NCBI GenBank assembly: GCA_029245065.1
Contig: JAQWQB010000141.1
Coordinates: 1 to 64,000 of the forward strand
Direction of reading: 5' to 3'
Length of the DNA: 64,000 nucleotides
Source of the DNA: Flavobacteriales bacterium
GTDB lineage: Bacteria > Bacteroidota > Bacteroidia > Flavobacteriales_D > Sanyastnellaceae
Part shown: positions 11,055 to 35,593 of the stretch, piece after piece
How positions within the stretch are numbered: position 1 is the first letter of the stretch
Layout of the letters: the number at the start of each line of letters is the position of its first letter
Position numbers and translations under genes: made by a program
Notes under the pieces: model-generated
Database searches by the model: none
What the model was told of the DNA's origin: nothing
The model's input: only the letters and a program-made list of their open reading frames with translations

Positions 11055-11570
11055 TTAGATGCGGGACCGCAATCTTCCGACTACAAAAAGCACCAGGGCT
11101 GGCATCGGGCTTTGCATGAATCCAAGCACCTTTCGCGCGATGTTATATCCAGGTTCAGGCATGGAAATCAGCTTCCCACCGACTAAGAAGAACCCGGCTA
11201 GGACGAAGCAAATGGCCATCATCCACAGGAGTAACTTGGTGAAAAACGCATCGTCGAAGGCCCACTTGAGGAAGAGGAAGTTGAGCAAGACATTTAGTAC
11301 AATGAACACAACTGCCAAGCCCCACTTGAGCGTTGTTAATTGCGATCTTGAAAAAGAATGCAATGATTCAATGGGATCGTGGCTATAGTAATAATTGAAG
11401 GGAGCATCTATTCGCTTCACATCCAGCCATGCTTTTCTTTCCTCCGGAGACCAGTCATAGAAAGCAGGTTCTGAAGCCGTTTGTTCGAGGTAAAAATTCA
11501 CGTTCACCTTCACCATTTCTTGGGCGAAACCAAGCAGCAGCATGAGCGGAAGTAAGAGCCAGTGTTTCAC
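11055..11570 (-). CDS. Exosortase F system-associated membrane protein
   Basis: A 171-residue membrane protein: an N-terminal hydrophobic helix (about 3-16), a polar extracytoplasmic segment (about 17-80, with FYDWSPEERKAW), then three further hydrophobic helices. Size, topology and position directly after xrtF match the family known as the exosortase F system-associated protein of flavobacteria. Its biochemical role is not established; a partner or accessory subunit of the exosortase is inferred. The start overlaps the xrtF stop by 4 bases (ATGA), suggesting translational coupling. Confidence 0.8.
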   Translation of the reverse strand: MKHWLLLPLMLLLGFAQEMVKVNVNFYLEQTASEPAFYDWSPEERKAWLDVKRIDAPFNYYYSHDPIESLHSFSRSQLTTLKWGLAVVFIVLNVLLNFLFLKWAFDDAFFTKLLLWMMAICFVLAGFFLVGGKLISMPEPGYNIARKVLGFMQSPMPALVLFVVGRLRSRI

Positions 11571-12118
11571 GAAGCAGGTGTTTTAGCAGGCTTCGTTTTT
11601 TGGACTGAAAATTTTTGAACCCAGATGTACCATAGCAAAAACACGAAGGCATATACGATGACCGTAAATGTATAATCGTGGTTGAAGTCGAGCAGGTCAG
11701 GACGGTAATTGACAATAGTAGCAAGAGCAACTACTCGCAGTACATTAATGTAATGAATGGCGACAACGCCTAACGGCATGAACCAAGCCTTGTGTTTCCA
11801 TGGTCCTGGGTAGGCCAACACGAAGATGGAAAAAAGGGCGAACAGTATAATACCGTCACAGGGTGCTCCAATGGTTACTCCGGGAGAGCTGGCAATTCCG
11901 ACATGATTTCTCCAGGTTCCATCATCGAACACCCGAAGTTCGTACCCTAAAATTTCAAGTATTGACTCAGTGCCTTTTACAATTTGATCTACTACCCATT
12001 CGTCTAACGAAGAATGTGGTCGAAGCACAAATTCATACAGAACGTACCAGCCCAAGTAGGCCAAGGCACCAATAATTAGAAAGCTCAGTAAAGGATTATC
12101 CTTGAGCTTCGAAATCAT
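11567..12118 (-). CDS. xrtF: Exosortase family protein XrtF
   Basis: A 183-residue multi-pass membrane protein with the exosortase/archaeosortase catalytic triad visible: Cys87 in GAPCDGI, Arg129 in INVLRV and His148 in FNHDYTF. Exosortases are membrane cysteine proteases/transpeptidases that cut C-terminal sorting signals (PEP-CTERM and relatives) of exported proteins. The length and downstream neighbour fit the flavobacterial XrtF type. The gene overlaps the upstream PID-CTERM-like substrate gene and the downstream associated-protein gene by 4 bases each. The operon is divergent from the polysaccharide locus, as is common for exosortases, which tend to co-occur with exopolysaccharide genes. 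Confidence 0.9.
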   Translation of the reverse strand: MISKLKDNPLLSFLIIGALAYLGWYVLYEFVLRPHSSLDEWVVDQIVKGTESILEILGYELRVFDDGTWRNHVGIASSPGVTIGAPCDGIILFALFSIFVLAYPGPWKHKAWFMPLGVVAIHYINVLRVVALATIVNYRPDLLDFNHDYTFTVIVYAFVFLLWYIWVQKFSVQKTKPAKTPAS

Positions 12119-12450: not shown

Positions 12451-14913
12451 ATGGCGCAGAACAAAGCCTCCTTTATTGACCCCGAAGATCTTCGGCCGAT
12501 ATTCAAATTCGTCGGGAAGAACTGGCTAGCACTTATGTTGCTACCCGTGATTACCTTCGTTGTTGCGTACATTGTTACGTACCAAACGCCAGACATTTAT
12601 GCGGCGAAATCAGAGATTCTTCTTCGGTCTCAAGAGACGTATGATTACCAGTCTCAGATTTACAGCAACGTTGGTTATTACACCTTGCTTGCAGATGTCA
12701 CCAACCAACAACGCGTTCTTTCTTCGTACGATATCATTTCGAAATCGCTTACCAAACTTGATTACAACATCTCGTATTATTTGGTAGGTCGACTGAAAAC
12801 GGAGCAGCAAGACAATATTAGCGCGCTGGACATCACTTTTGCGAAAGATAAACTGGGAGAACCAGTTATTCATCCGAGCCTCTTGAATCAGCCCATCAAC
12901 GTAAAAGTGCTTGACCTAGATCGTTTCTCCATCAGCTACGAGCGGATGGGCGAACAAATCACCAAAGAGTACTTGTTTGGTCAACAGATTGAAGAGCCTG
13001 ATTTCACCATGGTCATTAATAAAACTGACCGGATTGACGAGGGCACCATTGAAAATAACAAGGACATCGGGTTCCAATTCCGTGTGCACAGTCATAAATA
13101 CTTGGTCAGCAAGTACAAACGTGCGCTAACCATTGAAAACATTGAATACACTTCCATCTTAAACCTTCAAGTTGAGAACGAAGTTCCCGAGCGTGCCAAG
13201 CGATTCTTGGATACGTTGAGCACCGTTTACATCGACTATACGCAACAGACGCGGATTGACGTCAACGAAAACACGCAACGCTACATTGACAAGCAACTTG
13301 ATGAGCTCGAGTACATTTTGGACTCGTTGGAATACATGCTTCAGTCTTTCCGCGATTCGAACCGCATCCTGGATTTAAGTAAGGAACAAGAAGAGTACTT
13401 TAAAAGCATGGTTGAATTCGATGCTCAAAAAAGAAGACTCGAATTGCAGTTGGAATCCATGAGTACCATGGAAGAGTTCCTTTTACAGAAAGCCAACAAC
13501 GAAGCATTGCCACCGTCGTTCTTCATGTTTGAAGAGGACTACATTCTCCAAGATCAGATCAGCGAGCTTTCTAGCTTGAAGAGAGAACGGATTGTAAAGA
13601 TGCTCAACTACACCGAAGAGAATGGGGAAATCTTGAAATTGGATTCCATCATCAACACGGTGAAGCAGGGGATCTACAAATACACTGTTGATACAAAGGC
13701 CGCCATTCTGAGTAAAATTCGCGACATCAACGCACAAATTGCTCGACTGGAATACAAGTTGAAGCAAATTCCGAAGTCGCAGCGTGATATCTTGGGAATC
13801 GATCGTAAGCTCAAAGTAAACGAGAACCTTTACATCTTCTTGCTAGAGAAGAAGGCCAACACAGTAATCGCTCGTGCTGCGATACTTCCAGAAGCTTCTT
13901 TGGTCGAAGAATCCAGAAACTTAGGGGTCGTCGGGCCGAACAAGCAAAAAACCATTTACCTCGCTGTGGGTATTGGACTAGCGATAGCGGTGGTCATTGG
14001 ATTGATTCGAACTATATTCTTTGAACGAATCGAGAACATCAGAGAAATGAAGTCCATTTCGAAGCTGCCAATTATCGGTGGAATTCCGAACTACACGGAA
14101 ATCAACACCGACCCAATTGCCATTGCTTCAGCACCTCGAAGCAATGTCGCCGAGGCCTTTCGATCCATACGAACCAACCTTCAGTACTTATTACAAGCTG
14201 AAGGGCCAAAGGTTATTTTGGTAACATCCTTGCACCCGGGGGAAGGAAAAACATTTACTTCGTCCAACCTGGCTTCTGTGTTAGCGAAAGCTGGTAAGAA
14301 AGTTATGTTGCTCGATTTCGACATGCACAAGCCGAAGATTCACAAGACCTTTGGGCTTGAAAATGTGGCGGGTGTTTCTACCTACCTGATTGGCAGAACA
14401 GACATTGGTGCGTGTAAGATTCAAACGCAAGTTGAAAACTTAGAAGTGATGACGGCCGGACCCGTTCCACCCAACGCTTCCGAGTTGGTAGTTAGTGAGC
14501 GTGTAAACATGCTTCTTGATGAATTAAAAGCCTCCCATGACTTTATCGTCGTGGATACTCCTCCACTGATGCTCATTAGTGATTCACTTGTACTCATGAA
14601 CCATGTGGACACAGGAATCTACGTGATGAACACCGAAAAAGCATCTAAACAAGGTATCCGTTACTTGGAAGATGTGCTTGGTCAGAATAACCTGACAAAC
14701 GTTTCAGTACTGCTGAATAACATCAAGCAGAAAAAATGGAAGTATTATTACGGTAAATACGCATACCGCTATGGATATGGCTATGGTTACGACTATGGCT
14801 ATGGATATGGTTACGGAAGCGAGCCTAACGCAAAAGGAAAGGCGAAAGCGAAGGACTTGAGAGCTGGATACGGTGCAGAAAACGAAAATCGGAAGCAACG
14901 TAAAAAGCGCTAA
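12451..14913 (+). CDS. Wzc-type polysaccharide co-polymerase with BY-kinase domain
   Basis: This 820-residue inner-membrane protein controls polymerisation and export of surface polysaccharide. It has an N-terminal Wzz-type membrane helix (about 30-50), a long periplasmic coiled-coil region, a second helix (about 503-525) and a cytoplasmic bacterial tyrosine kinase domain. In that domain are Walker A (HPGEGKT, about 595), Walker A' (LLDFDMHK, about 620) and Walker B (FIVVDTPP, about 698). The C-terminus is a tyrosine cluster (about 766-787, with eight Tyr-Gly or Tyr-Asp pairs), the usual autophosphorylation site, followed by a very basic tail. It is the first gene of the locus. No Wza-type outer-membrane exporter lies beside it in this window. 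Confidence 0.92.
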   Translation: MAQNKASFIDPEDLRPIFKFVGKNWLALMLLPVITFVVAYIVTYQTPDIYAAKSEILLRSQETYDYQSQIYSNVGYYTLLADVTNQQRVLSSYDIISKSLTKLDYNISYYLVGRLKTEQQDNISALDITFAKDKLGEPVIHPSLLNQPINVKVLDLDRFSISYERMGEQITKEYLFGQQIEEPDFTMVINKTDRIDEGTIENNKDIGFQFRVHSHKYLVSKYKRALTIENIEYTSILNLQVENEVPERAKRFLDTLSTVYIDYTQQTRIDVNENTQRYIDKQLDELEYILDSLEYMLQSFRDSNRILDLSKEQEEYFKSMVEFDAQKRRLELQLESMSTMEEFLLQKANNEALPPSFFMFEEDYILQDQISELSSLKRERIVKMLNYTEENGEILKLDSIINTVKQGIYKYTVDTKAAILSKIRDINAQIARLEYKLKQIPKSQRDILGIDRKLKVNENLYIFLLEKKANTVIARAAILPEASLVEESRNLGVVGPNKQKTIYLAVGIGLAIAVVIGLIRTIFFERIENIREMKSISKLPIIGGIPNYTEINTDPIAIASAPRSNVAEAFRSIRTNLQYLLQAEGPKVILVTSLHPGEGKTFTSSNLASVLAKAGKKVMLLDFDMHKPKIHKTFGLENVAGVSTYLIGRTDIGACKIQTQVENLEVMTAGPVPPNASELVVSERVNMLLDELKASHDFIVVDTPPLMLISDSLVLMNHVDTGIYVMNTEKASKQGIRYLEDVLGQNNLTNVSVLLNNIKQKKWKYYYGKYAYRYGYGYGYDYGYGYGYGSEPNAKGKAKAKDLRAGYGAENENRKQRKKR
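14770..14817 (+). repeat. Hexanucleotide repeat encoding the Tyr-Gly tail of the Wzc kinase
   Basis: Eight consecutive in-frame copies of TAY-GRN encode YG, YG, YG, YD, then four more YG pairs. The near-identical hexamers could change copy number by slippage in steps of two residues, altering the number of phosphorylatable tyrosines without a frameshift. Confidence 0.85.
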
Positions 14914-14962: not shown

Positions 14963-15604
14963 ATGGTCTCACTGATCATAACCACTTACAATTACGCTCA
15001 ATATGTGGAACGTGCTATTCGTAGTGCGCTCGAACAAAGCCTCCCTCAGAATCAACTTGAGATCTTGGTGATTAATGACTGCAGTACTGACCGTACGCCA
15101 GACATTCTAGCGAATTACGAAGATGAGGTACGCGTTTACAACTTAGAAGAGAATCTTGGTCTTTCCGGTGCACGAAATTTTGGCATCAAAAAGGCCCGTG
15201 GACAGTTCGTTGTTTTCCTTGATGCAGACGATTACATCCACCGCGATTTATTGAAAACGCAGAAGCTTTTCTTGGACGAGAACAACGCGTTGGACGCAGT
15301 AAGCACAGACTATTATTTGGTTGACGAGCGCGGGCAACATATCAAGCATGTATCTTCTGAAGAAGAGCCAATTGCATGTGGGATCATGTTCCGAAAAGAC
15401 TTCTTGTTCAACATTGGTTTGTATGATGAATCATTTCGCTCAAGAGAGGAAGAAGACCTCCGAATTCGTTGGGTTGAACAATACGGCATTTATAACTTAA
15501 TCCTTCCGCTTTACAGATACCGGATGCATGACCATAACTTGACAAAGAATACTGCAGCCATGGATGAAGGATCAGAAATGCTGCAAAAAAAGCACTCGAA
15601 ATGA
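14963..15604 (+). CDS. Family 2 glycosyltransferase
   Basis: A 213-residue GT-A enzyme: it starts VSLIITTYNYAQYV, has the nucleotide-binding INDCSTD motif and the metal-binding DxD-type motif in FLDADD. The catalytic region around REEEDLRIR follows. It is expected to add one sugar from a nucleotide donor to the lipid-linked repeat unit on the cytoplasmic face; donor and acceptor cannot be told from sequence. It is short for GT2, with no C-terminal extension or membrane helix. The stop overlaps the next start by 4 bases. Confidence 0.85.
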   Translation: MVSLIITTYNYAQYVERAIRSALEQSLPQNQLEILVINDCSTDRTPDILANYEDEVRVYNLEENLGLSGARNFGIKKARGQFVVFLDADDYIHRDLLKTQKLFLDENNALDAVSTDYYLVDERGQHIKHVSSEEEPIACGIMFRKDFLFNIGLYDESFRSREEEDLRIRWVEQYGIYNLILPLYRYRMHDHNLTKNTAAMDEGSEMLQKKHSK

Positions 15605-16137
15605 ATTCTTTCATCAAGGGAACATCTATTTACTTGAGAGCCATTAGTTTGGCTGATGCGTCTGAAGATTATCTGCAGTGGATCAATGATGCTGAGACAA
15701 CCAAAGGCCTCGTTACAGGCACCTTCCCCTCAACAATGGAAGACCTTAAGTCATACCTTACGCACGTTTCGACAGACAGTAAAACCATCATGTTTGCCAT
15801 TTGTCAGAACGACGGGGATCGACATGTAGGCAACATCAAGTTGGATAATTTCGACTGGGTCTCGAGAACCGCTGAATTGGGAATTCTACTTGGTGCGAAA
15901 GACACTTGGGGACAAGGAATTGGAACCGAGTCGTGCCAACTTCTACTTAGCTATGCATTCGAAGAGTTGAACTTGCGAAAAGTGAGTTTAACCGTTTATG
16001 ACAACAACCCAGGAGCGATTCGGCTCTATGAAAAAATAGGTTTCCAAACTGAAGGCAGGTTACGCAAACACATCTTCGCAAATGACGTCTACATCGACAA
16101 ACTTTGGATGGGAATTTTTAAAGAGGAGCTGAAATGA
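15601..16137 (+). CDS. GNAT-family N-acetyltransferase (sugar acylation, PseH/SpsD-like role)
   Basis: A 178-residue GNAT protein of the RimJ type: N-terminal IYLRAISLADA, acetyl-CoA-binding region WGQGIGTE and the late motif NPGAIRLYEKIGF. In nonulosonate and spore-coat sugar clusters (pseudaminic acid PseH, Bacillus SpsD) such enzymes acetylate an amino group on the sugar precursor. Its place directly before a cytidylyltransferase, an aminotransferase and a NeuB-type synthase supports that role here. Translational coupling by ATGA overlaps on both sides. Confidence 0.82.
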   Translation: MNSFIKGTSIYLRAISLADASEDYLQWINDAETTKGLVTGTFPSTMEDLKSYLTHVSTDSKTIMFAICQNDGDRHVGNIKLDNFDWVSRTAELGILLGAKDTWGQGIGTESCQLLLSYAFEELNLRKVSLTVYDNNPGAIRLYEKIGFQTEGRLRKHIFANDVYIDKLWMGIFKEELK

Positions 16138-16889
16138 AATTAGTCATCGTTCAAGCAAGAATGGGCTCAACAAGATTGCCCGGGAAGGTATTGCAAACCA
16201 TTGGCGAACGTACCATATTAGGACATTTACTACACCGTCTTTCACCCTCAACCAAAGTTGATCAATTCATTGTTGCCACTACAGAGAACACAGAAGATGA
16301 CGCCATAGAAAAATGGTGTTCAACGAACAACGTAGCTTGTTTTAGAGGAAGCGATTGGGATGTATTAGAACGTTTTTGGGGCGCCGCGAACAGCTGCAAT
16401 GAAGCACCTGATACCATTGTTCGTATTTGTTGCGACAACCCTCTCCATTCCTACAAAGTATTGGACTTCGTAGTTGCTGAATTTGAAGCCGCAGGTACTG
16501 ATTATTTTTCAAATTCGAACCAAGAACCAGACTACTTGGAAGACGGGTTTGACGTAGAAGTATTTACGTACAACGCTTTGAAAGAAGCAAGGGAAAAAGC
16601 GCGCCTCATGAGTGAGCGTGAACATGTTTGTCCCTACATCAAAAAGCACTTCACTTGCGCTTGGAAAAAAGCGGATCCGAATTATATGTTCAAACTTTCT
16701 GTGGACACCCCTGCAGATTTAAACATCGTAGCTCGTATTTTCGAAGAATTGAAAGCGCATGAGGATTTCAGTATTGAAGAAGTCACTGCTTTGCTGAAAA
16801 GCAAGCCTGAAATCCTCGAATTGAATAAGGAAAGTAAAATCAATAGCGGCTTTAAGAAGTCGCTGGATGAAGATAGAATTGTAAAATGA
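16134..16889 (+). CDS. SpsF-type cytidylyltransferase
   Basis: A 251-residue nucleotidyltransferase starting VIVQARMGSTRLPGKVLQ, the signature of the SpsF branch of acylneuraminate cytidylyltransferases. Further motifs are VRICCDNPLH and SVDTPADLNI. It likely activates a nonulosonic-type acid with CTP to the CMP-sugar. It is a different branch from the NeuA-type enzyme at 28488, so the locus probably activates two acidic sugars. It overlaps both neighbours by 4 bases in a set with a GNAT, class III aminotransferase, SDR and NeuB. Confidence 0.85.
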   Translation: MKLVIVQARMGSTRLPGKVLQTIGERTILGHLLHRLSPSTKVDQFIVATTENTEDDAIEKWCSTNNVACFRGSDWDVLERFWGAANSCNEAPDTIVRICCDNPLHSYKVLDFVVAEFEAAGTDYFSNSNQEPDYLEDGFDVEVFTYNALKEAREKARLMSEREHVCPYIKKHFTCAWKKADPNYMFKLSVDTPADLNIVARIFEELKAHEDFSIEEVTALLKSKPEILELNKESKINSGFKKSLDEDRIVK

Positions 16890-18229
16890 ACAAACCAATC
16901 ACCCTACCTAACGTGACCAATTTTGCGAAAAGCGATGAGCATCGTTCGATGATTCATTCGCTCATTCCAGGTGGCGCGCACACGTATTCAAAAGGAGACG
17001 ATCAATTTCCAGTTCATTCTCCTGCGGCTATTACCCACGCCAAAGGTGTTTACTGCTGGGATCTTGACGGCAACAAATACCTAGACACGCTTATGGGGCT
17101 TACATCGGTTTCGCTAGGCCACGCCTATGAACCAGTATTGGAACGTGTAAAAGAAGAGCTTTCGAGAGGGTCAAACTTCTCTCGTCCGGGAATCATTGAA
17201 CGTGAAATGGCAGAGCGCTTTTTATCGCTCGTTCCTCAACACGACATGATCAAGTACGCCAAAAACGGTTCTGTTGTGACGACCGCTGCCATTAAACTGG
17301 CCAGAGCGCACACAGGACGTAGCATTGTTGCACGAACGGCTGAGCACCCTTTCTATAGTTACGACGATTGGTTCATTGGATCTACTGATTGTGACTTTGG
17401 TGTTCCGCGCGAAGTACAAAACATGACCGTGACGTTTAAGCACAATGACTTGGAAGACCTTGAACGCATGTTCAATGAGTATCCTGGTCAAATTGCTTGC
17501 ATCATTGGCGAGCCAGAAAAATGGCAAGTAATTGAGCCTGATTTCTATGAAAAGGCCATTGCCATTGCTCACAAGCATGGAGCGCTTTGGATCATGGATG
17601 AGATGATCACCGGATTCAAAACAGACTACCCTGGTTCTATTAAGCGATTGAACGCAGAGCCTGACATGGCTACTTGGGGCAAAGGAATTGCAAATGGATT
17701 CTCTTTCTGCGCCTTAACAGGAAAGAAAGAAGTGATGGAGCTTGGTGGTATTCATCGAGAAGGTGAGAAAAAACTATTCCTCGTGAGCACTACACACGGT
17801 GGTGAAACACATGCTATTGCTGCCGGATTGGCAACGATGGATGTCTTCGAGAACAACAATGTTATTGAACACAATCATGCTATTGGTGACCATTTCATCA
17901 AAGGTTTGAATGGTATTTTAGATCGAAGAGGACTTCAAGATTACTTCGACATTACTGGATTCAATTGGAGTGTTGGACTCATCGTGAAGAACGCCCAAAA
18001 GCAGCCTTGCTTGTTCTACCGAACCTTGTTCATGCAAGAAATGATACAACGCGGCGTGCTTTACCAAGGAATTCTGTCTCCTTGTTACTCACACACCATT
18101 GCAGACATTGACTTCATGCTGGCTGCTTTTGACGCCAGTTGTGATGTATTTGAAAAAGCGCTTCAAGATGGGTACGAAAAGTACCTTGTGGGCCCAGAAA
18201 TTAAACCTGTATTTAGAAAGTTCAACTAA
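16886..18229 (+). CDS. Class III (glutamate-1-semialdehyde aminomutase-like) aminotransferase
   Basis: A 447-residue PLP enzyme: PGGAHTYSKG near the N-terminus, the PLP-binding Asp in WIMDEMITGF and the Schiff-base Lys near residue 266 in TWGKGIANG. The family includes HemL, but the position in a sugar operon argues for amination of a keto sugar. Known nonulosonate pathways (PseC, LegC) use DegT-type aminotransferases, so a class III enzyme is unusual here. The SDR encoded next could supply the keto substrate. It starts inside the previous stop (ATGA) and ends in a TAATG overlap with the SDR gene. Confidence 0.85.
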   Translation: MNKPITLPNVTNFAKSDEHRSMIHSLIPGGAHTYSKGDDQFPVHSPAAITHAKGVYCWDLDGNKYLDTLMGLTSVSLGHAYEPVLERVKEELSRGSNFSRPGIIEREMAERFLSLVPQHDMIKYAKNGSVVTTAAIKLARAHTGRSIVARTAEHPFYSYDDWFIGSTDCDFGVPREVQNMTVTFKHNDLEDLERMFNEYPGQIACIIGEPEKWQVIEPDFYEKAIAIAHKHGALWIMDEMITGFKTDYPGSIKRLNAEPDMATWGKGIANGFSFCALTGKKEVMELGGIHREGEKKLFLVSTTHGGETHAIAAGLATMDVFENNNVIEHNHAIGDHFIKGLNGILDRRGLQDYFDITGFNWSVGLIVKNAQKQPCLFYRTLFMQEMIQRGVLYQGILSPCYSHTIADIDFMLAAFDASCDVFEKALQDGYEKYLVGPEIKPVFRKFN

Positions 18230-19053
18230 TGGAACCGAAAAGAACTACCGACCCCACCACCATCAATTTTCGTGAGAAATTCGAGTTGAAGGGCAAGGTC
18301 ATTGTAATCACTGGAGCATGTGGACTTGTTGGCCGCGCTTTTTGCGAAGCTGCTGCACAGTTCGGCGCTCATGTAGTAGCTGTGGACATCCCCCAAGCTG
18401 ACCCGGCTGCTTTCGCCAAGGAATTGGAAGAGAGACATGACAACAAAATGCTCGGTGTTGCCCTGGATGTTGCTTCGAAAGAAGATGTTTCTGCGCTTCT
18501 AGCAAGCACGCTAGACCGCTTTGGCACCATTGATGGCCTCGTGAATGGTCACCAAAACAAAAGCCACCTCATCTTCGAGCCGTTTGAAGACGTTTCTGAA
18601 GACAACTGGGATACCGTGGTGAATATTAACCTAAAAGGTACTTTTCTTACTTGCCAAGTACTGGGAAGCTGGATGGCAAATAACGGCGGTGGAAGTATTA
18701 TTAATATTCCTTCAACCTACAGTGTTGTTGCTCCAAACCAAAATCTTTACAAAGGAACAAGTCTTGGTTGTCCGGCAGCATACAGCGCTTCCAAAGGTGG
18801 AATTGACGCGCTTTCACGTTACTTAGCCTCGTATTGGGCTACAAAAAAAGTACGCGTAAATATGATTACACCACATGGGGTGTGGAACAACCATGAAAAA
18901 CAATTCGAAGACAACTTCGCACGCTTCTCCCCTATGGAACGATTGAGTTACAATCATGAAGTTGCGAGTGCAATGATCTATTTGCTCTCTGACGCATCTA
19001 GCTACGTTACAGGCGACAACATGCTTGTGGAAGGTGGTTGGACCGTATGGTGA
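18229..19053 (+). CDS. Short-chain dehydrogenase/reductase (SDR)
   Basis: A 274-residue classical SDR: the cofactor motif TGACGLVG near residue 30, catalytic Ser in INIPSTYS and the YSASK pair (Tyr185, Lys189). It ends with the usual GDNMLVEGGWTVW. It probably oxidises a hydroxyl to a ketone, or reduces a ketone, on a sugar intermediate, providing or using the substrate of the adjacent aminotransferase. It is not an extended SDR of the PseB/LegB dehydratase type; none of those is encoded nearby. Confidence 0.85.
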   Translation: MEPKRTTDPTTINFREKFELKGKVIVITGACGLVGRAFCEAAAQFGAHVVAVDIPQADPAAFAKELEERHDNKMLGVALDVASKEDVSALLASTLDRFGTIDGLVNGHQNKSHLIFEPFEDVSEDNWDTVVNINLKGTFLTCQVLGSWMANNGGGSIINIPSTYSVVAPNQNLYKGTSLGCPAAYSASKGGIDALSRYLASYWATKKVRVNMITPHGVWNNHEKQFEDNFARFSPMERLSYNHEVASAMIYLLSDASSYVTGDNMLVEGGWTVW

Positions 19054-20117
19054 AAATTGAACACATGAAACTAACAGACTTTTTAGATAATTATGACCCA
19101 CGCGTGCTTACGAGACCGTATGTCATTGCTGAGGCTGGGGTGAACCACGAAGGCTCAATGGATCTTGCAAAAAGACTTATTGACGAAGCCGCGGAAGGTG
19201 GGGCTCACGCCATTAAATTTCAAACGTACAAGGCCGAAACCATTGCGTCAAAAGACTCTCCTTATTACTGGGATATTACCAAAGAGTCTACCCGCAGTCA
19301 GTTCGAACTTTTCAAGAAGTACGACAAATTCTGGAAGGGCGAATACGAGGAACTTGCGAAGTACTGCGAAACGGCAGGAATTGAGTTCATGAGCACTCCG
19401 TTCGATGTGGAATCAGCAAATTTCTTGAATGAAATGATGCCTGTGTTCAAAATATCCTCTTCGGATTTAACGAACCTACCGTTCATTGAGCACATGTGCA
19501 AGTTTGGAAAACCAATGATTCTATCTACTGGTGCTGCCTACCTATGGGAGGTTCAACAGGCGGTTGAAGTCATTGAAAAGCATGGTAACCAACTCTGTTT
19601 GATGCACTGTGTATTGAACTACCCTACTGAAGATCAGAATGCTCATTTGGGCATGATTAAAGACTTGATTCGTCAATTCCCAGACCATGTTCCCGGCTAC
19701 AGTGATCACACGCTACCAAAAGACATGGAAGTCATGAAAATGGCCACCCTTCTTGGAGCTGCAGTCATTGAGAAGCATTTTTCTCACGACAAAACCTTGC
19801 CTGGAAACGACCATTACCACGCCATGGACAAGGAAGACATGAAGCACTTCAACTCGGTAATGGACAAAACATTTGAGCTACTCGGGTCATTCAAGCTTTC
19901 GGCACTACCTAGTGAAGAAAAATCGCGTCAAAATGCGCGTAGAAGCCTTGTTGCAGCACGACAAATCCCAGCTGGAAAAGCCATTGAAAGAGAAGACTTG
20001 ACATGGAAGAGACCAGCCAAAGGAATTAGTCCGAAAGAAATTGAAGTGGTGCTTGGCAAGAAAGCTACACGTACCATCGAAGAAGATGAAATCTTGATGT
20101 GGAATGCCCTCGACTGA
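19047..20117 (+). CDS. neuB: NeuB/SpsE-type nonulosonic acid synthase with SAF domain
   Basis: About 356 residues. The TIM-barrel opens with YVIAEAGVNHEGSMDLA and includes IKFQTYKAE, MSTPFD, ILSTGA, GYSDHT and IEKHFSHDK, all typical of NeuB. The C-terminal SAF (antifreeze-like) domain covers about 295-356. The enzyme condenses phosphoenolpyruvate with an amino-hexose or similar to give a nonulosonic (sialic-like) acid. ATG 19047 overlaps the SDR stop; ATG 19065 is an alternative. The longer reading from TTG 19038 is unlikely. The DUF4910 gene begins 14 bases before its stop. Confidence 0.9.
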   Translation: MVKIEHMKLTDFLDNYDPRVLTRPYVIAEAGVNHEGSMDLAKRLIDEAAEGGAHAIKFQTYKAETIASKDSPYYWDITKESTRSQFELFKKYDKFWKGEYEELAKYCETAGIEFMSTPFDVESANFLNEMMPVFKISSSDLTNLPFIEHMCKFGKPMILSTGAAYLWEVQQAVEVIEKHGNQLCLMHCVLNYPTEDQNAHLGMIKDLIRQFPDHVPGYSDHTLPKDMEVMKMATLLGAAVIEKHFSHDKTLPGNDHYHAMDKEDMKHFNSVMDKTFELLGSFKLSALPSEEKSRQNARRSLVAARQIPAGKAIEREDLTWKRPAKGISPKEIEVVLGKKATRTIEEDEILMWNALD

Positions 20118-21387
20118 GTTAGAAAAAGACCTTGAATCCTATTTTGATCGTCTTTGGCCAATTTGTCGAAGTCTGACGGGTGACGGTGTTCGCGAAACCC
20201 TTGCCATTTTGCAAGAGGTTGTACCTATGGAGCTGTTTTCAGTTGCTAGCGGGTCAACTGTGTTTGACTGGACCGTCCCGAAAGAATGGAACATCAATGA
20301 AGCTTACATTCTAGATCCTTCAGGTCAGAAAATCATCGACTTCAAGGAAAACAACCTGCACGTATTCAGCTATTCCACTCCTGTGAATACTGAACTCACG
20401 TTTGAGGAACTGAACAAACACCTTCGCACCCTACCTGCCATGCCAACGGCAATCCCCTATGTAACCTCTTATTACAGAGAGCAATGGGGCTTCTGTCTTT
20501 CACATGAACAATGGGAATCGCTTCCCCGTGAAGGCAACTACAGGGTGGTTATTGATAGTTCGCTTACGAACGGCGAACTGAATTATGGCGAATGTGTGCT
20601 ACCAGGAGAGACAGACAAGGAAATTTTGTTCTCTACCTATGTTTGTCATCCGAGTATGGCGAACAATGAATTAAGTGGGCCGCTTGCTCAAGCATTTCTT
20701 TACAAGGAAATCGCCAAGCTAAAAAACAGAAAATACACCTACCGTTTTGTCTTTGCCCCTGAGACGATAGGCATCATTGCTTACCTTGATCGCGTGGGAG
20801 ATCAGCTACTGAAAAACCTCGAAGCTGGTTACGTCTTAACTTGTGTTGGAGACCGAGGACCGCTCACCTACAAACGTTCTAAGCAAGGCCAGTCTGTGGC
20901 TGATAGAACCGCAGAGCACGTTCTAAAACACAGTGAAAAAACGCATGAAATAATTGACTTCGCCGTTGGCGGAAGCGATGAACGACAGTACTGCTCTCCA
21001 GGATTCAACCTACCGGTGGGTTCACTCATGCGCACACCGTACCAGCGTTACAAAGAATACCATACCTCGCTGGATAACAAGGAATTTATATCCTTTTCTC
21101 ATTTGGCCGATACGATTTCCACTTACATGGACATTGTAAAGGTGTTTGAATTGAACGAACCCTATGAGAACAAGGTGAAATTTGGAGAACCTCAGCTAGG
21201 GGAACGTGGCTTGTATCCAGACAGTATCAACCCTGATACCGATAGAGAAAACCTCCATAATTTGCTGCACTTTCTCAGTTTCGCTGACGGTCAAACAGAT
21301 TTGATCACTATTGCTGAAGCACGGAATAGGTCTGCCTTGGTTTTTGAAGAGGCCATTAAGAATTGTCAAGCAAAGGGACTCATCTAG
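20104..21387 (+). CDS. DUF4910-type aminopeptidase-like protein in a sugar operon
   Basis: A 427-residue protein with the fold signature of M28-like zinc aminopeptidases carrying a DUF4910/DUF2172 region. Probable metal ligands occur in CHPSMANNELSG (His), FAPETIGII (Glu) and YHTSLD (His). The family recurs in bacterial polysaccharide and flagellar sugar clusters beside NeuB-type genes, where its substrate is unknown; it might hydrolyse an amide on a sugar or remove an amino-acyl group. The N-terminus opens YFDRLWPICRSLTGDGVRET, a family hallmark. The gene directly abuts the flippase gene. Confidence 0.8.
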   Translation: MPSTELEKDLESYFDRLWPICRSLTGDGVRETLAILQEVVPMELFSVASGSTVFDWTVPKEWNINEAYILDPSGQKIIDFKENNLHVFSYSTPVNTELTFEELNKHLRTLPAMPTAIPYVTSYYREQWGFCLSHEQWESLPREGNYRVVIDSSLTNGELNYGECVLPGETDKEILFSTYVCHPSMANNELSGPLAQAFLYKEIAKLKNRKYTYRFVFAPETIGIIAYLDRVGDQLLKNLEAGYVLTCVGDRGPLTYKRSKQGQSVADRTAEHVLKHSEKTHEIIDFAVGGSDERQYCSPGFNLPVGSLMRTPYQRYKEYHTSLDNKEFISFSHLADTISTYMDIVKVFELNEPYENKVKFGEPQLGERGLYPDSINPDTDRENLHNLLHFLSFADGQTDLITIAEARNRSALVFEEAIKNCQAKGLI

Positions 21388-22848
21388 ATGCTGAAGTTCG
21401 TCTTTAAGAATTCACTCTTATACACGTTTGCGAACCAAATCCCGATGTTCGCCAACTTACTACTGTACCCTTTAATCACCGAATTTCTTACCGCATTTGA
21501 CTACTTCGTATTCGGTACCGCAATGGGTTACATGGGGCTGTTTGGCATGTTAGCTGACCTGGGAATGTCGCCGCTTTTTCAAAATGCTTTTTTCAAAAAA
21601 GAGAAGCATTACCGAAAGTTTTGGTCTAGGTACCTCGGGTTCCTCCTGTTGTACAAACTCTTTTACGGAATGGTTGCCGGAACCATGATTTGGCTGGTGT
21701 TTCGAAACGAGCTTCCTTCAGATCGACTGTGGCTCATCATAGGCTTGCTGGTTACACCACTTGTAACGTTCGATTTGACCAGAGGTGTTGGTATGCGCTT
21801 GATGCAGTTCAAGCACAAACACCGAGTGGTTCACTTGTCAACAGCCATTGCAGGAGCGCTAACAGTGGTCACGACCTTTATTACCATTTACATCATGAAG
21901 TTGGGCTACTTAGGCTTCTTCATTTCGAACTTTGTCAGCGTTATTTTTCAGGGAATTTTCTTCGCGTTTGTGATCTATGGAAAGGAGCGTATTCTTCCTA
22001 GTTTTCAGCTGAAGAGAAGGCAGATAAAAGGGTGGCTAAAGATCTCGTTGCCTCTTGTCCCACATAAATTTTCAGACTACCTCCTCACGTCAAGTGACCG
22101 AATTGTCCTCGATCAATATTTGGGCGTTTCCAATGTATCAACGGCTACCGTTGGGATGTACAACGTGGCTTACAATTTCGCCAGTTACTTCAATAGTTTC
22201 AGTGGGCAGGTGAACACCGTTGTTTCTCCTATATATTTCAGTCTTTTCCGCGATAAGAACCCACGTGTTCATCTGATCATTCGTCAGTTCACATTTATCT
22301 GGTTAGCATTCAATTACATTGCAGCAACACTCGCTGGTTTGTGGTCAAAAGAAGTGTTCGCTTTCTTCTTCATGAACAACAATGACGGACTTGAAACGGC
22401 CTACAAATACACGGTCTTTTTATTTATGGCATTTTGCTACCGTCCGCTTTACGTGGCTTCTGTTGAGTTTGTCATTTTCAAAGAAAAGACCATGTCGCTT
22501 TTCAAGATTACGACGGCAGCAGGAATTTTGAATGTTGTCCTGAACCTTGCACTTGTTCCAATTTTCGGGATTGAGGCAGCTATATTCTCCACCTTCTTGT
22601 GCTACATGTACATGGGGGTTTCTGGTCACTTGTTCAAAGACACCAAGCAGTACTTGCCTCTTCCGTACTACCCATTGCTTGTTTTTGCCGGAGTAACATT
22701 GACCGGGTTTTTCGTCTATTATGCCGTTGAATTCCACTGGCTCTACAAGATCGGAATCTCTGCACTCATGGGAATTGGCGCGGTTGTGTACTACTTGAAA
22801 AAAGGGAAGTTCGTAATTCGTGAGATTCAACAAATCAGAGTGAAGTAA
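21388..22848 (+). CDS. Wzx-type polysaccharide flippase
   Basis: A 486-residue integral membrane protein with about 12-14 hydrophobic helices over its whole length and no large soluble domain. The N-terminus (KNSLLYTFANQIPMFANLLL) and overall layout match MOP-family O-antigen and capsule flippases. It would move lipid-linked repeat units to the periplasmic side. It starts immediately after the previous stop. A -7-like promoter box lies just after its stop, so a new transcript may begin there. Confidence 0.88.
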   Translation: MLKFVFKNSLLYTFANQIPMFANLLLYPLITEFLTAFDYFVFGTAMGYMGLFGMLADLGMSPLFQNAFFKKEKHYRKFWSRYLGFLLLYKLFYGMVAGTMIWLVFRNELPSDRLWLIIGLLVTPLVTFDLTRGVGMRLMQFKHKHRVVHLSTAIAGALTVVTTFITIYIMKLGYLGFFISNFVSVIFQGIFFAFVIYGKERILPSFQLKRRQIKGWLKISLPLVPHKFSDYLLTSSDRIVLDQYLGVSNVSTATVGMYNVAYNFASYFNSFSGQVNTVVSPIYFSLFRDKNPRVHLIIRQFTFIWLAFNYIAATLAGLWSKEVFAFFFMNNNDGLETAYKYTVFLFMAFCYRPLYVASVEFVIFKEKTMSLFKITTAAGILNVVLNLALVPIFGIEAAIFSTFLCYMYMGVSGHLFKDTKQYLPLPYYPLLVFAGVTLTGFFVYYAVEFHWLYKIGISALMGIGAVVYYLKKGKFVIREIQQIRVK

Positions 22849-22855
22849 GGATGGT

Positions 22856-22863
22856 TACCTTTG
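22856..22863 (+). promoter_or_regulatory. Internal -7 promoter box after the flippase gene
   Basis: TACCTTTG matches TAnnTTTG. A TTG start at 22861 would lie inside the box, which favours ATG 22891 for the downstream gene. Confidence 0.55.
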
Positions 22864-22890
22864 CACCTTACTAACCACCAGATCGGACTT

Positions 22891-24279
22891 ATGCCTCTTC
22901 TTACATTTAGTCAGCTTCGCGAAGGAATTGACCAACGAATGGATGATCCTGCTATTACGCAGGGGAAGACGCATTGCTTCTACAAGATTTTTCAGCATGC
23001 TTTGACGTATTCGCTAACAGAATCGCATCAGAAGCTTTTAAAAAATAGGCTGCATTGGCCTGTTTTCGCACAGCGTGCTATTTACCGATTGAAATCATTC
23101 AACCATTCTGTCTCACCTTCCAAGATGAAATCCATTTTATTGATGGACGATGGGCGAATAGGAACCGATGAAAACGGAACGGTTAAATCGTATTATTTTG
23201 GTCCGCTGTTGGATGAATTGGGGCGTGACGGAATTAGCATAGCAAGAGACCACAACCACGATTCAGCATTGCCTCGTGAGTATGAACTCAGCGACATTGA
23301 ACTCTTTCGCAGAACTCCCATCGACCCTACAGAGGGGAAAATGCTGGAAGACATTTCCTTCGTGCTCTCAAAAGCCAAAAAGTCGGGAAAGTTCAACGAC
23401 GTCGAAATTGATCACATCTCTTCTGCATTGCACAGTTTTTTTGAGCAATACCACATGTTTTACCAGTGGCTCAAAAACAGTGGTGTAAAGCACCTTCTCA
23501 TGACCAATCATTACCATAGAGAAGGAATCATTGCGGCTGCAAAAGACTTGGGCATCATCTCCTTCGAATTTCAACATGGACTTATTGCAGCACAGGATTT
23601 GTACTACGTTTATGACAACAAGCTAGCCCCATTTGCGGACAAGGCCTTCTTCTGCGATCATTTGGTCGTTTTTGGGGACTATTGGAAAAACGTTCTTTTG
23701 AAGGGTGCTGGTTATGCTCCGGAACAGCTGATTGTAGCGGGAGATTATTCCATTCAGCGGAAAGCTTGGAAGAAGCATTTGAGTGTTGAAAAGGAGAACG
23801 CCATTTTTATTGGTGCGCAGAAAAACATGCCTGAGCATTACATTCGGTACACGAAGCAGCTGCTTTCCATCATTGAAGAAAAGCATCCCGAATGGGAAGT
23901 TTGGGTCAAGCTTCATCCGTATGAGAAAGAGCCAAAAATGTACAATGAATTATTGCGTTCGAAGTACTGCAAACTCTACGGAAATGGCGATGATCTGATG
24001 GCGCTACTCAGTAAATCGAAAATTCAAATTAGCGTTTACAGCACCACTTTCTTTGACGCATTGGGACTGGGAGTTGTGAATTTCTCGTTGCAGAACTACA
24101 CCACAGGAAGTGATTATGCAAAGGCTATGGCTGAAGAAGGAATGGCTGTTCCCTTGCTGTTCGATGAAGATCCAGTAGAAAAATTCGAGCTTCATCAGCA
24201 AGAAAATTTGCTCAATCGGGAAGATGTTTACGGCCCCATTGACTTGTCAAAATTAAAGGCACTTCTTGACTTGAACTAA
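22891..24279 (+). CDS. Putative GT-B transferase with HP and S/T motifs (capsule or sialyltransferase-like)
   Basis: A 462-residue protein without a confident family name. Features: FEFQHGLIAAQDLYY and a later Rossmann-like half with VAGDYSIQRKAW, VWVKLHPYEKE (HP motif) and SVYSTTFFDALGLG (S/T motif). HP plus S/T motifs occur in GT-B enzymes such as bacterial sialyl- and polysialyltransferases and in capsule or CDP-glycerol transferases. In a locus with CMP-sugar genes, transfer of a nonulosonic acid is a reasonable but unproven idea. ATG 22891 is chosen because the promoter box overlaps the upstream TTG. Confidence 0.6.
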   Translation: MPLLTFSQLREGIDQRMDDPAITQGKTHCFYKIFQHALTYSLTESHQKLLKNRLHWPVFAQRAIYRLKSFNHSVSPSKMKSILLMDDGRIGTDENGTVKSYYFGPLLDELGRDGISIARDHNHDSALPREYELSDIELFRRTPIDPTEGKMLEDISFVLSKAKKSGKFNDVEIDHISSALHSFFEQYHMFYQWLKNSGVKHLLMTNHYHREGIIAAAKDLGIISFEFQHGLIAAQDLYYVYDNKLAPFADKAFFCDHLVVFGDYWKNVLLKGAGYAPEQLIVAGDYSIQRKAWKKHLSVEKENAIFIGAQKNMPEHYIRYTKQLLSIIEEKHPEWEVWVKLHPYEKEPKMYNELLRSKYCKLYGNGDDLMALLSKSKIQISVYSTTFFDALGLGVVNFSLQNYTTGSDYAKAMAEEGMAVPLLFDEDPVEKFELHQQENLLNREDVYGPIDLSKLKALLDLN

Positions 24280-24339: not shown

Positions 24340-26040
24340 ATGCTTAAGAAACTAACTAATCTTCTGGCTCTTTTCTGTGTGATTACGGTATCAGCACAAG
24401 AAGATCCAGCATCAGCAATTGCTATATCATTACAAGATTATTTGCAGATCACCTACGACGGTGTTGCTTGCACATCTACTGCCGGGACTTTAGGTGCAGG
24501 GGATTCTGGAGAAGCAACGTGCATTGGTATCTCTACTGATGATGTTTGGTATTCTTTCACTGCAACAACCCAAGCCGTTAAATTTGAAGGAACCACTTCA
24601 AACTTCGACATGGTGCTTCAGTTAGTAGACGCTGTTACGATGGCTTCCATAGCTTGTCAAAACACGAACGGGGCCAATTCCGGAGAAACGCTTTATTCCA
24701 ACACACTCACTGCTGGAAACAACTATTACTTACGAATCCATTCTTTTGATGGCGCAGGAAGTGGATCATTCGACATTTGCGGTCAATACCTCCCGGCTGC
24801 AGAAGTGAGAACAGGATGGTACCCAACATTTTCTCCAGATCAAGGACTTCCAGGATACCGAATCAATCAGTCAATTAACAGATCAACTTACACTCCATAC
24901 AACGGCCTCATACAAGGAACGCGTTGGCTATTCGTTGATATGGGTACCGGAGATAACTTCATGGCTGAAGTAACAGGGTCGAATGGAATTATCAATCTTA
25001 ATTCCGTTGGCGGACTGTGTTTCAACAAAACGTACGATGTATTCGTTCAGGTTAGAGTAGATGACTACTGGAGTGGATACAGCTTAGAGCGACAAATCTT
25101 CACCGAGGCAGAACCAACAACAGAATTGGAGCCAGCTTACCCAGGTTTGAGCTACAACCTCGACGAAGAAATTAAAGCCCGTTTCGTTGGAACAGGCCAA
25201 AACTTAGAATGGAGACTGACTACCGACAACGGTGAAACAGTAATTTACCACGAGGCAGCAAACTCTACGAGTTACTGCTACTTAGACTTGGTAGAATGCA
25301 TCCGCTACAACCGAATTTACACGGTAGAGATTCGAGCAGAATACTGCGGAATTTGGGGCTCATGGAGTGATCCAGAGTTCATCATCATTAATCCACTTCC
25401 CTACGTGAACCTTCGCCCTGAATACTGCAATACCACGCAGTACGCCGGCGTAACACTTCAGTGTGAATTCCTAGAGGTAGTAGACCAATATGCTTGGCAA
25501 TTGACGCCTGTAGACATTGACGATCCTACCTACACCCCTATTGGCCCAGCGATTGTGACATATAGCGTACAAACAACTGCACTCTACTTGCTTCCTTTGG
25601 GCTTAGAATACGGTACAACTTATCGAGTTGGTGTCAAGCCAATGCTGGGAACAACAGATGCTTGCAATAGTCCGCAAGAAGGAGATTATGGCTACTTCTG
25701 TCACGTAACAATTGGAACTCCAGCTGAGCTTACTGAATGGGATGACGGAACACTTGCCCCTGAAGATAATCCGCTTGGCGAAATGACCGCATTGAGTGTT
25801 TTCCCTAATCCGACGACCACTGGATTCGCTGCCATTCAAATAGGCGACAAAGCATTATCAGGAAACGCGCTTCTTCAAGTGTATGATGTTGCTGGAAAAC
25901 TTATCTCTGAGCAGCAATTTTTCGCAGTAGAAAACGCAAATATCTTGCAGTTCTCAGTTCCTACTGGAACAAAAGGAAATTACATAGTGCGTTTGTCTGG
26001 CGATGGCTATTCTCACACCATGCCCTTACTCGTTAATTAA
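24340..26040 (+). CDS. Secreted protein with PPC-like and Fn3-like domains and T9SS type A sorting domain
   Basis: A 566-residue protein: signal peptide (about 1-19, ending VITVSAQ), PPC-like domain (about 35-150, with DVWYSFTATTQ and YYLRIHSFDGAGSG), three or so beta-rich repeats of about 110 residues (each with a Trp-rich core and Cys pairs), then a type A sorting domain (about 488-566, LSVFPNPTTTGF and LQVYDVAGKLISE). It should be exported by T9SS and attached to the cell surface. Its stop overlaps the stop of the convergent gene within TTAATTAA. It interrupts the polysaccharide gene series, so a link to the polysaccharide is possible but unproven. Confidence 0.85.
   Translation: MLKKLTNLLALFCVITVSAQEDPASAIAISLQDYLQITYDGVACTSTAGTLGAGDSGEATCIGISTDDVWYSFTATTQAVKFEGTTSNFDMVLQLVDAVTMASIACQNTNGANSGETLYSNTLTAGNNYYLRIHSFDGAGSGSFDICGQYLPAAEVRTGWYPTFSPDQGLPGYRINQSINRSTYTPYNGLIQGTRWLFVDMGTGDNFMAEVTGSNGIINLNSVGGLCFNKTYDVFVQVRVDDYWSGYSLERQIFTEAEPTTELEPAYPGLSYNLDEEIKARFVGTGQNLEWRLTTDNGETVIYHEAANSTSYCYLDLVECIRYNRIYTVEIRAEYCGIWGSWSDPEFIIINPLPYVNLRPEYCNTTQYAGVTLQCEFLEVVDQYAWQLTPVDIDDPTYTPIGPAIVTYSVQTTALYLLPLGLEYGTTYRVGVKPMLGTTDACNSPQEGDYGYFCHVTIGTPAELTEWDDGTLAPEDNPLGEMTALSVFPNPTTTGFAAIQIGDKALSGNALLQVYDVAGKLISEQQFFAVENANILQFSVPTGTKGNYIVRLSGDGYSHTMPLLVN
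26033..26040. other. TTAATTAA palindrome supplying both stop codons of convergent genes
   Basis: The 8-base palindrome gives TAA to the plus-strand gene (26038-26040) and TAA to the minus-strand gene (26033-26035 complement). The two coding regions therefore overlap by 8 bases with no room for a terminator between them. Confidence 0.9.
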
Positions 26041-27399: not shown

Positions 27400-28491
27400 A
27401 TGAAGCCCTTACATCTCAAAACATTTCTATCCGACGAAGGATTCGGTCACATTGTGCGACAGCGCGCCATTATAGAGGCATTACGCCAACACGTCCCAGA
27501 ACTGTCAATCTTGTTGCAGACAGGCAAGCACATTGATGCTGCGGGCAGACTGATCAAAGGAATAGAAACTACACGCAAATACAACAACATTACCTGGCAC
27601 AAACAGCCCAACGGCTCTCCAGATGTTGACCTGATAAAAATTGAATACGCCCAATACCTCAAAAGATCTGAAGACTTCGTAGAGCAAGAGATGCAGGAAT
27701 GGGGCGACTTCGACTTTGTCATTTCAGACTTTGTTTACGAAGCATTCCCATTGGCGAAAAAACGAGGCGTCCCTTCTTTTGGGGTAGCTCACTTTACCTG
27801 GGATTGGTTCTTCTCAAAACTGTATCCACCGCCCCTTAAAACGGAGGTCATTTACCGCTTCTTTGAGATGGCGAAAATGGCAGATGCTTTGTACTTCCCT
27901 CCTTTCACCCCTGAAGAAATACTTCGTTATTACAAAGTGAATGCCATGGAAGTGCCCTTAATTCTGCGCTCGGAAATCAATCACAAAGATTCTGGGTCCC
28001 ATGATAAATTTAAGATCATGATCATGGATTCAGGTGCAGGAGTGCTTCGTCCTTCTATACTCAAGGCGCTGGACTCTGTTCGTGAGATGGACGATGTACA
28101 ATTCTTCGTCTCATCGAGCATGGAACGAGAGCAAGAGAACATTTCGTTCATAGATAAGAACGAACTTATGGTGGATTACATCAACGAAATGGACTTGGTG
28201 ATTGGGCGAGCTGGTTTCAATACCATTAGCGAATGCATTGGGCTTCGTACCCCGATGCTCCTGATTGGAGAGGCCATGAACCCAGAGATGAATGAGAACA
28301 TCTTAAACCTGAAGAAAGTTGGTCTTGGAACCTTCATTAGCTTGGAAACATTCGAAAACGACCTTCGCCATTACCTCCCACTCTTTAGAAAACACGAATA
28401 CAAATTCATTGCACAAAACATGAAGGACCATGAAATGGCCGTGAACGGTGCTGAAGTAATTGCATTGGATATATTGAACAGAATAGGATGA
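27400..28491 (+). CDS. MurG/PseG-like GT-B protein (sugar-nucleotide hydrolase or glycosyltransferase)
   Basis: A 363-residue protein with an N-terminal half opening KTFLSDEGFGHIVRQRAI, which resembles the glycine-rich loop region of MurG/PseG. Its C-terminal half contains GRAGFNTISECI followed by P(M)LLIGEAMNPEMNEN, the UDP-binding signature of GT28-type proteins. In pseudaminic and legionaminic pathways a GT-B protein (PseG/LegG) removes UDP before the NeuB step. It overlaps the CMP-sugar synthetase gene by 4 bases, which supports a hydrolase role, but a true transferase is equally possible. Confidence 0.65.
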   Translation: MKPLHLKTFLSDEGFGHIVRQRAIIEALRQHVPELSILLQTGKHIDAAGRLIKGIETTRKYNNITWHKQPNGSPDVDLIKIEYAQYLKRSEDFVEQEMQEWGDFDFVISDFVYEAFPLAKKRGVPSFGVAHFTWDWFFSKLYPPPLKTEVIYRFFEMAKMADALYFPPFTPEEILRYYKVNAMEVPLILRSEINHKDSGSHDKFKIMIMDSGAGVLRPSILKALDSVREMDDVQFFVSSSMEREQENISFIDKNELMVDYINEMDLVIGRAGFNTISECIGLRTPMLLIGEAMNPEMNENILNLKKVGLGTFISLETFENDLRHYLPLFRKHEYKFIAQNMKDHEMAVNGAEVIALDILNRIG

Positions 28492-29072: not shown

Positions 29073-29084
29073 GATCGAAAAGAA

Positions 29085-30911: not shown

Positions 30912-30936
30912 CAACACTTGAAACAACACAACTAGT

Positions 30937-33564: not shown

Positions 33565-33566
33565 TT

Positions 33567-34325: not shown

Positions 34326-34394
34326 ATCAGACTTTACCTACATGGATATTTGTTAGTTTTACCACATGTTTGCACAAGCGACAACCGCACACAG

Positions 34395-35591: not shown

Positions 35592-35593
35592 AT

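Follow-up and report, generated by a model that had tools for sequence, protein, structure and literature searches.

A nonulosonate gene set with a class III aminotransferase in a Flavobacteriales glycan locus and a proposed route to an amino-nonulosonic acid

Described systems and the six-gene set

In the Kdo8N pathway of Shewanella, KdnA and KdnB act on an octulosonate with a DegT-type aminotransferase and an iron-type dehydrogenase. Oxidation of an ulosonic acid followed by its amination is also what we propose for six adjacent genes in the window analysed here, which is the stretch of 64,000 nucleotides at positions 1 to 64,000 of contig JAQWQB010000141.1 (assembly GCA_029245065.1) from a Flavobacteriales bacterium. 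The likeness would be one of reaction logic, since the enzymes are not homologous: the aminotransferase of the window, called AT3 below, is of class III, and the oxidoreductase is a short-chain dehydrogenase/reductase (SDR). Other parts of the set have closer precedents. A class III aminotransferase and a reductase were already noted in the pse islands of Aeromonas (group I flagella glycosylation islands, FGI), which hold the same kinds of genes as the window when likened by their published description alone (PMC7874193). A DUF4910 gene beside spsE/spsF is also in print, and the founder DUF4910 protein binds zinc but lacks the active site of a peptidase (PMC4000134). Campylobacter jejuni needs Cj1295, a member of the DUF4910 family by its DUF2172 annotation (PMC6321876), to form the di-O-methylglyceroyl amide at C5 of pseudaminic acid (Pse; PMC3068675). 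Like the window, the systems of CA_C2195 (PMC4000134) and Cj1295 (PMC3068675) have DUF4910 beside spsE/spsF-type genes and a role in modified nonulosonates, which for the window is a proposed one, but the published table for Clostridium acetobutylicum contains no class III aminotransferase (PMC4000134). The statement in a preliminary description of this DNA that the pathway is undescribed stands for the product, as our literature search found none named for this gene set, and does not stand for its parts (PMC4000134, PMC3068675, PMC7874193).

The six genes are all on the forward strand, and adjacent open reading frames overlap by 1-14 bases, with the sole exception of an 11-base gap between the SDR and NeuB genes. 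The first encodes a GNAT N-acyltransferase (15601..16137; Pfam Acetyltransf_3 5e-25) that is PseH-like but below the NCBIfam cut-off (63.9 bits against 93.1). It is followed by an SpsF-type CMP-ulosonate cytidylyltransferase (16134..16889; Pfam CTP_transf_3 1.5e-29; PDB 6oew 6.8e-32), the class III, HemL-like aminotransferase AT3 (16886..18229; Aminotran_3; NCBIfam PRK06209 531.9 bits against 486), and a classical, PRK09186/PtmA-like SDR (18229..19053; adh_short_C2 2e-47; PRK09186 190 bits and PtmA 139 bits, both below cut-off). A NeuB-type ulosonate synthase with a SAF domain comes next (19065..20117; PF03102 1e-73; PF08666 4e-14), its start likely being the ATG at 19065, and a DUF4910/DUF2172/HTH_47 metallopeptidase-like protein closes the set (20104..21387; PF16254 7e-99; PDB 3k9t 5e-118). 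AT3 falls outside the glutamate-1-semialdehyde aminomutases (HemL, TIGR00713: 175.7 bits against 527), and the SDR falls outside the PtmA flagellin modification SDRs (NF050062: 138.8 bits against 350).

The gene order is kept in a genome of the same family (L040), with identities of 77% for SpsF, 78% for AT3, 82% for the SDR, 86% for NeuB, 66% for DUF4910 and only 32% for GNAT, and it is also kept in L096 and L100; several Flavobacteriales share it. The six-gene arrangement is therefore not due to chance, and the reading frames, domains and order first described hold in the window and in its relatives. The idea that all six genes are coupled needs to be narrowed: SpsF, AT3 and the SDR are the more constant part, while GNAT and DUF4910 are less constant and NeuB is often unlinked from AT3. 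Loss of NeuB from loci such as L088, L089 and L093 was rejected, because NeuB is found elsewhere in those genomes.

Distribution of the module and absence of canonical enzymes

Co-occurrence of the genes, for which the preliminary description had suggested a neighbourhood search, was scored in 399 genomes of the order, with NeuB called at an identity of at least 60% and the SDR at at least 70%. This NeuB is present in 43 of the genomes and AT3 in 29, all of them within the 43 (Fisher 7e-34 at the genome level, where related genomes are not independent; by genus, 12/0/6/52, p 1.7e-9), and the two share one contig in only 9 of the 29. The SDR is also present in 29 genomes, 26 of them in common with AT3. 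In three genomes with AT3 alone and in one with the SDR alone, the matches are cut at contig ends or the assembly is an incomplete metagenome-assembled genome; the remaining two SDR-only genomes carry another class III aminotransferase (30-31% identity) in the place of AT3 and no SpsF there. This other aminotransferase, encoded between GNAT and the SDR, was seen in two loci of one genus (L156, 9914-11245; L157, 5033-6364), with SpsF missing. NeuB without AT3 and without the SDR was found in 11 genomes of the order; among such NeuB-only cases, it adjoins a PseF-PseG fusion in L161/L162 and an SpsF in L163. Since the SDR tracks AT3 and NeuB also occurs without both, the oxidoreductase and the aminotransferase make up one separable module atop NeuB.

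AT3, whose PLP-lysine motif TWGKGIANGFS is conserved, exceeds the PRK06209 cut-off in 12 of 396 genomes of the phylum, and a lower-scoring relative is present in 56 more. The contexts of AT3 were labelled by BLAST against reference proteins from these loci, so single labels may be wrong while the pattern holds; two of the references, the C-methyltransferase and the glucose-1-phosphate cytidylyltransferase, owe their names to visual inspection of the sequence and not to a family search. The Pse context comprises PseB, PseC, an aldo-keto reductase (AKR), SpsF, AT3 and PseI, and in L038/L039 PseB, PseC, PseI and PseG exceed their NCBIfam cut-offs with an AT3 orthologue inside the pathway. In the legionaminic acid (Leg) context of L036, AT3 stands alongside LegC, NeuC, NeuB, a NeuD-type acetyltransferase and an SDR that exceeds the PRK09186 cut-off. 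The window context consists of a GT2 glycosyltransferase, GNAT, SpsF, AT3 and the SDR, with NeuB and DUF4910 then present or not, and the CDP-sugar context of a C-methyltransferase-like protein, DUF4910, AT3 and a glucose-1-phosphate-cytidylyltransferase-like protein, with NeuB not at the locus. CDP-type loci were seen in cyanobacteria, Chloroflexota, Alphaproteobacteria and Planctomycetes (L033, L034, L116, L123, L125, L128-L139), and L034 also carries a PIG-L deacetylase. A more distant, sub-cut-off aminotransferase was observed with SpsF, a two-part transketolase, an SDR, a KdsC/KDN-9-phosphate-phosphatase-like protein and a NeuB lacking SAF; this cluster is widespread in Bacteroidota (L045, L047, L048, L049, L052 and other low-scoring genomes), and we know of no product for it.

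Like the window, the Flavobacterium Pse loci (L039, L061-L065) have an SpsF partner, a NeuB-type synthase, one oxidoreductase and an AT3 of the sister clade; Pse islands carry PseB/PseC, PseI and an AKR, whereas the window lacks these and has the SDR instead. Two Leg loci (L036, L164) share with the window an SpsF-type protein, AT3 and an SDR side by side, but they carry LegC, NeuC, a PtmE-like protein and a LegI-type NeuB, which the window genome lacks, and their AT3 and NeuB belong to other clades. In the AT3 tree (quick method, midpoint root) the window and Pse clades are sisters, and the Leg and CDP types fall outside. SpsF and an AKR are each present in 25 of 26 Pse-type loci; all 16 window-type loci have SpsF and an SDR, and none has an AKR. 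This distribution suggests one oxidoreductase per AT3. In seven Pse-type loci, of Flavobacterium and others, SpsF and AT3 are one fused protein, which places the amination next to CMP activation. Because AT3 orthologues lie inside complete Pse and Leg pathways, AT3 would add to such routes and not replace a part of them, and the C5 and C7 nitrogens and the C9 methyl group would be supplied by other enzymes. The earlier suggestion that the SDR and AT3 substitute for canonical steps is thus not borne out, as full Pse and Leg pathways are found together with AT3 homologues and the NeuB clade occurs without both enzymes; amination of an unusual carbon by the pair, also suggested earlier, gains from the same orthologues and is the best reading.

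As first described, the six genes include no PseB, LegB, PseC, LegC or NeuC, and none exceeds a curated cut-off in the genome of the window (98.35% complete, 143 contigs). The best match to LegC in this genome reaches 203 bits against 420 (TIGR04181), and its three non-hydrolysing 2-epimerases reach only 87 bits against 236 with NeuC/LegG (TIGR03568). A PseB/LegB-type dehydratase feeding this NeuB from elsewhere had been named as the alternative; the genome-wide search found no soluble one (PF02719), and the only strong Polysacc_synt_2 protein, a 625-aa WbpM-like membrane dehydratase on another contig, is the one remaining candidate. PseC was tested indirectly: the three DegT proteins of the genome score 164-203 bits with the LegC model, and true PseC proteins score 207-237. 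An ordinary but dispersed Pse, Leg or neuraminic acid (Neu) pathway was rejected, the required enzymes being below cut-off genome-wide. Of 20 module-bearing genomes, the window's own included, 3 have LegC over cut-off and 3 have a short PseB-like dehydratase.

The window NeuB has the NeuB and SAF domains of its superfamily and the Mn-site histidines (H215 and H236 equivalents). It scores 247 bits with PseI (TIGR03586, cut-off 340) and 328 bits with the Neu model (TIGR03569, cut-off 399.65), lies outside the PseI clade, and forms in the tree a clade of its own with no characterised member. A LegI identity was rejected on the basis of this clade and of genome G403, in which a LegI is present in addition, within a separate Leg cluster. 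At position 134, Glu is replaced by Asp in every member of the window clade compared. The equivalent of SiaC Arg314, which we take to contact the acyl group of N-acetylmannosamine (ManNAc), is retained, so an N-acyl acceptor is likely. In the SDR, the catalytic residues Ser162 and Tyr185-xxx-Lys189 are present and an acidic residue follows the second strand (VVAVDIP); in SDRs such a residue favours NAD, and this points to the oxidation direction. In DUF4910 the zinc-site histidines are kept, and the equivalent of Asp195 is Asn across the window clade. The family splits by its zinc-ligand motif: CHPSMANNELSG is found in window-type loci and in one Pse-type locus (L087), and CHPSxxNDNxSG, with the zinc-ligand Asp, in CDP-type loci and CA_C2195 (CHPSMCNDN in CA_C2195 against CHPSMANNE in the window clade).

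A proposed pathway and its alternatives

Based on these findings, we propose that the locus makes a CMP-activated nonulosonic acid with one amino group more than its parent, destined for an exosortase-X-linked surface glycan; we give this reading a probability of about one half. The step order, carbon, acceptor, acyl groups and product are inferred from gene content, families, conserved residues, co-occurrence, fusion, clades and the lack of canonical upstream genes. NeuB would condense phosphoenolpyruvate with an N-acyl amino sugar, and SpsF would activate the resulting acid with CTP to give the CMP-nonulosonate. The SDR, as an NAD-dependent sugar dehydrogenase, would oxidise one hydroxyl group to a ketone (or aldehyde), and AT3 would aminate this carbon, C8 being favoured, before or at the CMP stage. 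The new amine would be acylated by GNAT, and DUF4910 may exchange or trim the N-acyl group, as Cj1295 suggests. In Pse loci the same logic would use an AKR with AT3 in place of the SDR with AT3; since the Pse enzymes account for the C5 and C7 amines and the C9 methyl group, an extra amination there could take place only at C4 or C8. Flexibacter (Tenacibaculum) maritimus contains a Pse-like nonulosonate, 5-(3-hydroxybutyramido)-7-acetamido-8-amino-3,5,7,8,9-pentadeoxy-manno-nonulosonic acid, with its C8 configuration undetermined and no genes linked to it (PMC3210612). This 8-amino-nonulosonate of the lipopolysaccharide is, likened by structure alone, the type of product that an AKR or SDR acting with AT3 is predicted to give (PMC3210612), and by this analogy the enzyme set may account for a sugar without assigned genes.

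Several points weigh against this proposal. The choice of C8 is made by analogy with Pse-type loci; C4, C7 and C9 are also possible, and the window sugar may carry a free C9 hydroxyl. The model, built from sequence, does not identify the source of the NeuB acceptor, and NeuB-only genomes may use another one. SpsF is missing at the locus in genus g185. The CDP-sugar context has AT3 and DUF4910 at loci without NeuB, SpsF and the SDR, so the substrate range of AT3 would be wider. Tenacibaculum maritimum is not among the best 80 matches listed, and the link from genes to the 8-amino sugar would be one of analogy. For the 403-Da glycan of Aeromonas hydrophila AH-1, considered as a pointer to the product, we found no structure.

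AT3 and the SDR might instead work at a stage earlier than NeuB and supply its acceptor. In that case the WbpM-like dehydratase would form UDP-4-keto-6-deoxy-GlcNAc, AT3 would serve for LegC at C4 and GNAT for LegH, and a PseG-like hydrolase would free the sugar. Such a scheme would fit the lack of LegC, PseC and NeuC over cut-off, the single WbpM-like dehydratase of this genome and most relatives, the closeness of GNAT to PseH, the PseF-PseG fusion adjoining this NeuB clade in L161/L162, and the use of a PglF-like dehydratase for Leg in Bacillus subtilis (PMC7439481). However, other genomes have AT3 orthologues together with PseC or LegC, the NeuB clade occurs without AT3 and the SDR, the fusion joins AT3 to the CMP step and not to an NDP-sugar step, and the WbpM-like gene is common and unlinked; we therefore think this scheme unlikely, though worth keeping in mind. 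The same fusion to the cytidylyltransferase speaks against the SDR and AT3 making a small amino- or hydroxy-acid, which GNAT and DUF4910 would then add to the sugar as its N-acyl group, as do the replacement of the SDR by an AKR in Pse loci and the absence of an acyl-activating enzyme and a carrier protein from the six-gene set. We consider this distinctly unlikely, even though small amino acids are substrates of HemL-like class III enzymes and 3-oxoacyl-ACP reductases are among the families with which the SDR scores; DUF4910, too, has a link to an unusual acyl group in C. jejuni (PMC3068675) and accompanies AT3 in CDP-sugar loci.

It seems improbable that NeuB makes an ordinary Neu5Ac-like nonulosonate from ManNAc, supplied by a WecB-type epimerase and an unidentified hydrolase, with the SDR and AT3 serving an unrelated sugar that shares the locus: the three 2-epimerases and the ManNAc-site residues kept in NeuB would suit it, but AT3 and the SDR co-occur with NeuB even when unlinked. 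In a Kdo route, the SDR and AT3 would aminate Kdo at C8 in the manner of KdnB/KdnA, with SpsF for KdsB. The preliminary description noted a likeness in logic to KdnB/KdnA, and SpsF does give weak scores with KdsB models. Since all 29 AT3 genomes of the order also hold this NeuB and none was found without it, and since AT3 orthologues stand in Pse and Leg contexts and the enzyme families differ from KdnA/KdnB, we regard this route as very improbable. Returning to the additional amination of a nonulosonate, we see the pathway as undescribed, yet still as nonulosonate biosynthesis in a variant form, to which a tailoring module that recurs in several contexts has been added. A bolder version, which we offer only tentatively, is a fourth nonulosonate route, in which a separate NeuB clade would use an acceptor that is not a product of NeuC, LegBC or PseBC. 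Amination at C8 (or C9) by the SDR and the class III enzyme, with acyl remodelling by DUF4910, would give a new amino-nonulosonate in Bacteroidota exosortase-X glycans, and the sister module of AKR and SpsF-AT3 fusion would give the orphan sugar of the 8-amino-pseudaminate type.

The surrounding glycan locus and what the module may mean

An exosortase X gene on the reverse strand (11567..12118; NF046081 199 bits, cut-off 170), with homologues in 13 relatives, stands 3.5 kb upstream of the six-gene set. On the forward strand, the set is preceded by genes for a Wzc-like chain-length regulator/tyrosine autokinase (12451..14913; TIGR01007 174 bits, cut-off 108) and a GT2-type glycosyltransferase (14963..15604; Glycos_transf_2 8.5e-35), a constant neighbour that occupies the same upstream place in most relatives. 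It is followed, also on the forward strand, by those for a Wzx-like flippase (21388..22848; Polysacc_synt 3e-12) and for a GT-B-fold protein without a Pfam family (22861..24279). Homologues of this protein lie at most 3 genes from this NeuB, DUF4910 or AT3 in 13 of 14 loci, and it is probably a seventh member of the locus. Its AlphaFold model (pLDDT 84) has GT-B UDP-GlcNAc 2-epimerases as top PDB matches (TM ~0.4); it may be the transferase for the sugar or an epimerase-like enzyme, between which the fold search does not discriminate.

Further along the glycan locus, a secreted 566-aa protein (24340-26040) may be an acceptor or sheath protein; L100, L040, L096 and L170 encode homologues at the corresponding position (42-61% identity), and L156 and L157 encode weaker ones. 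Another NeuB-like protein, which is short (30937-31644; 235 aa) and has neither SAF nor the first 50 model positions, is grouped with a short PseF-like cytidylyltransferase (28488-29072), AsnB (29085-30911) and an MJ1255-family protein (27400-28491), for which BLAST showed no similarity to PseG. This group (27400-31644) is kept in L040/L058 and L108, which suggests that the locus encodes a second ulosonate route. At 32956-38158, HisH, HisF, a WbuX-type amidotransferase, a Gfo/Idh protein, a NeuD-like acetyltransferase and a DegT protein resemble a gene set for amidated diamino-uronic acids.

The enzyme set recurs in many bacteria and is not explained by the three textbook routes. Databases continue to label class III aminotransferases of the PRK06209 type as glutamate-1-semialdehyde aminomutase, no reaction is assigned to DUF4910, and sequence-based predictors of sialic acids would place the NeuB clade under Neu or Leg without support. 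If our reading is true, one module of an oxidoreductase, AT3 and SpsF would explain amino-nonulosonates across several phyla; genes would be assigned to a sugar known only structurally, and products could be predicted for many surface-glycan loci.

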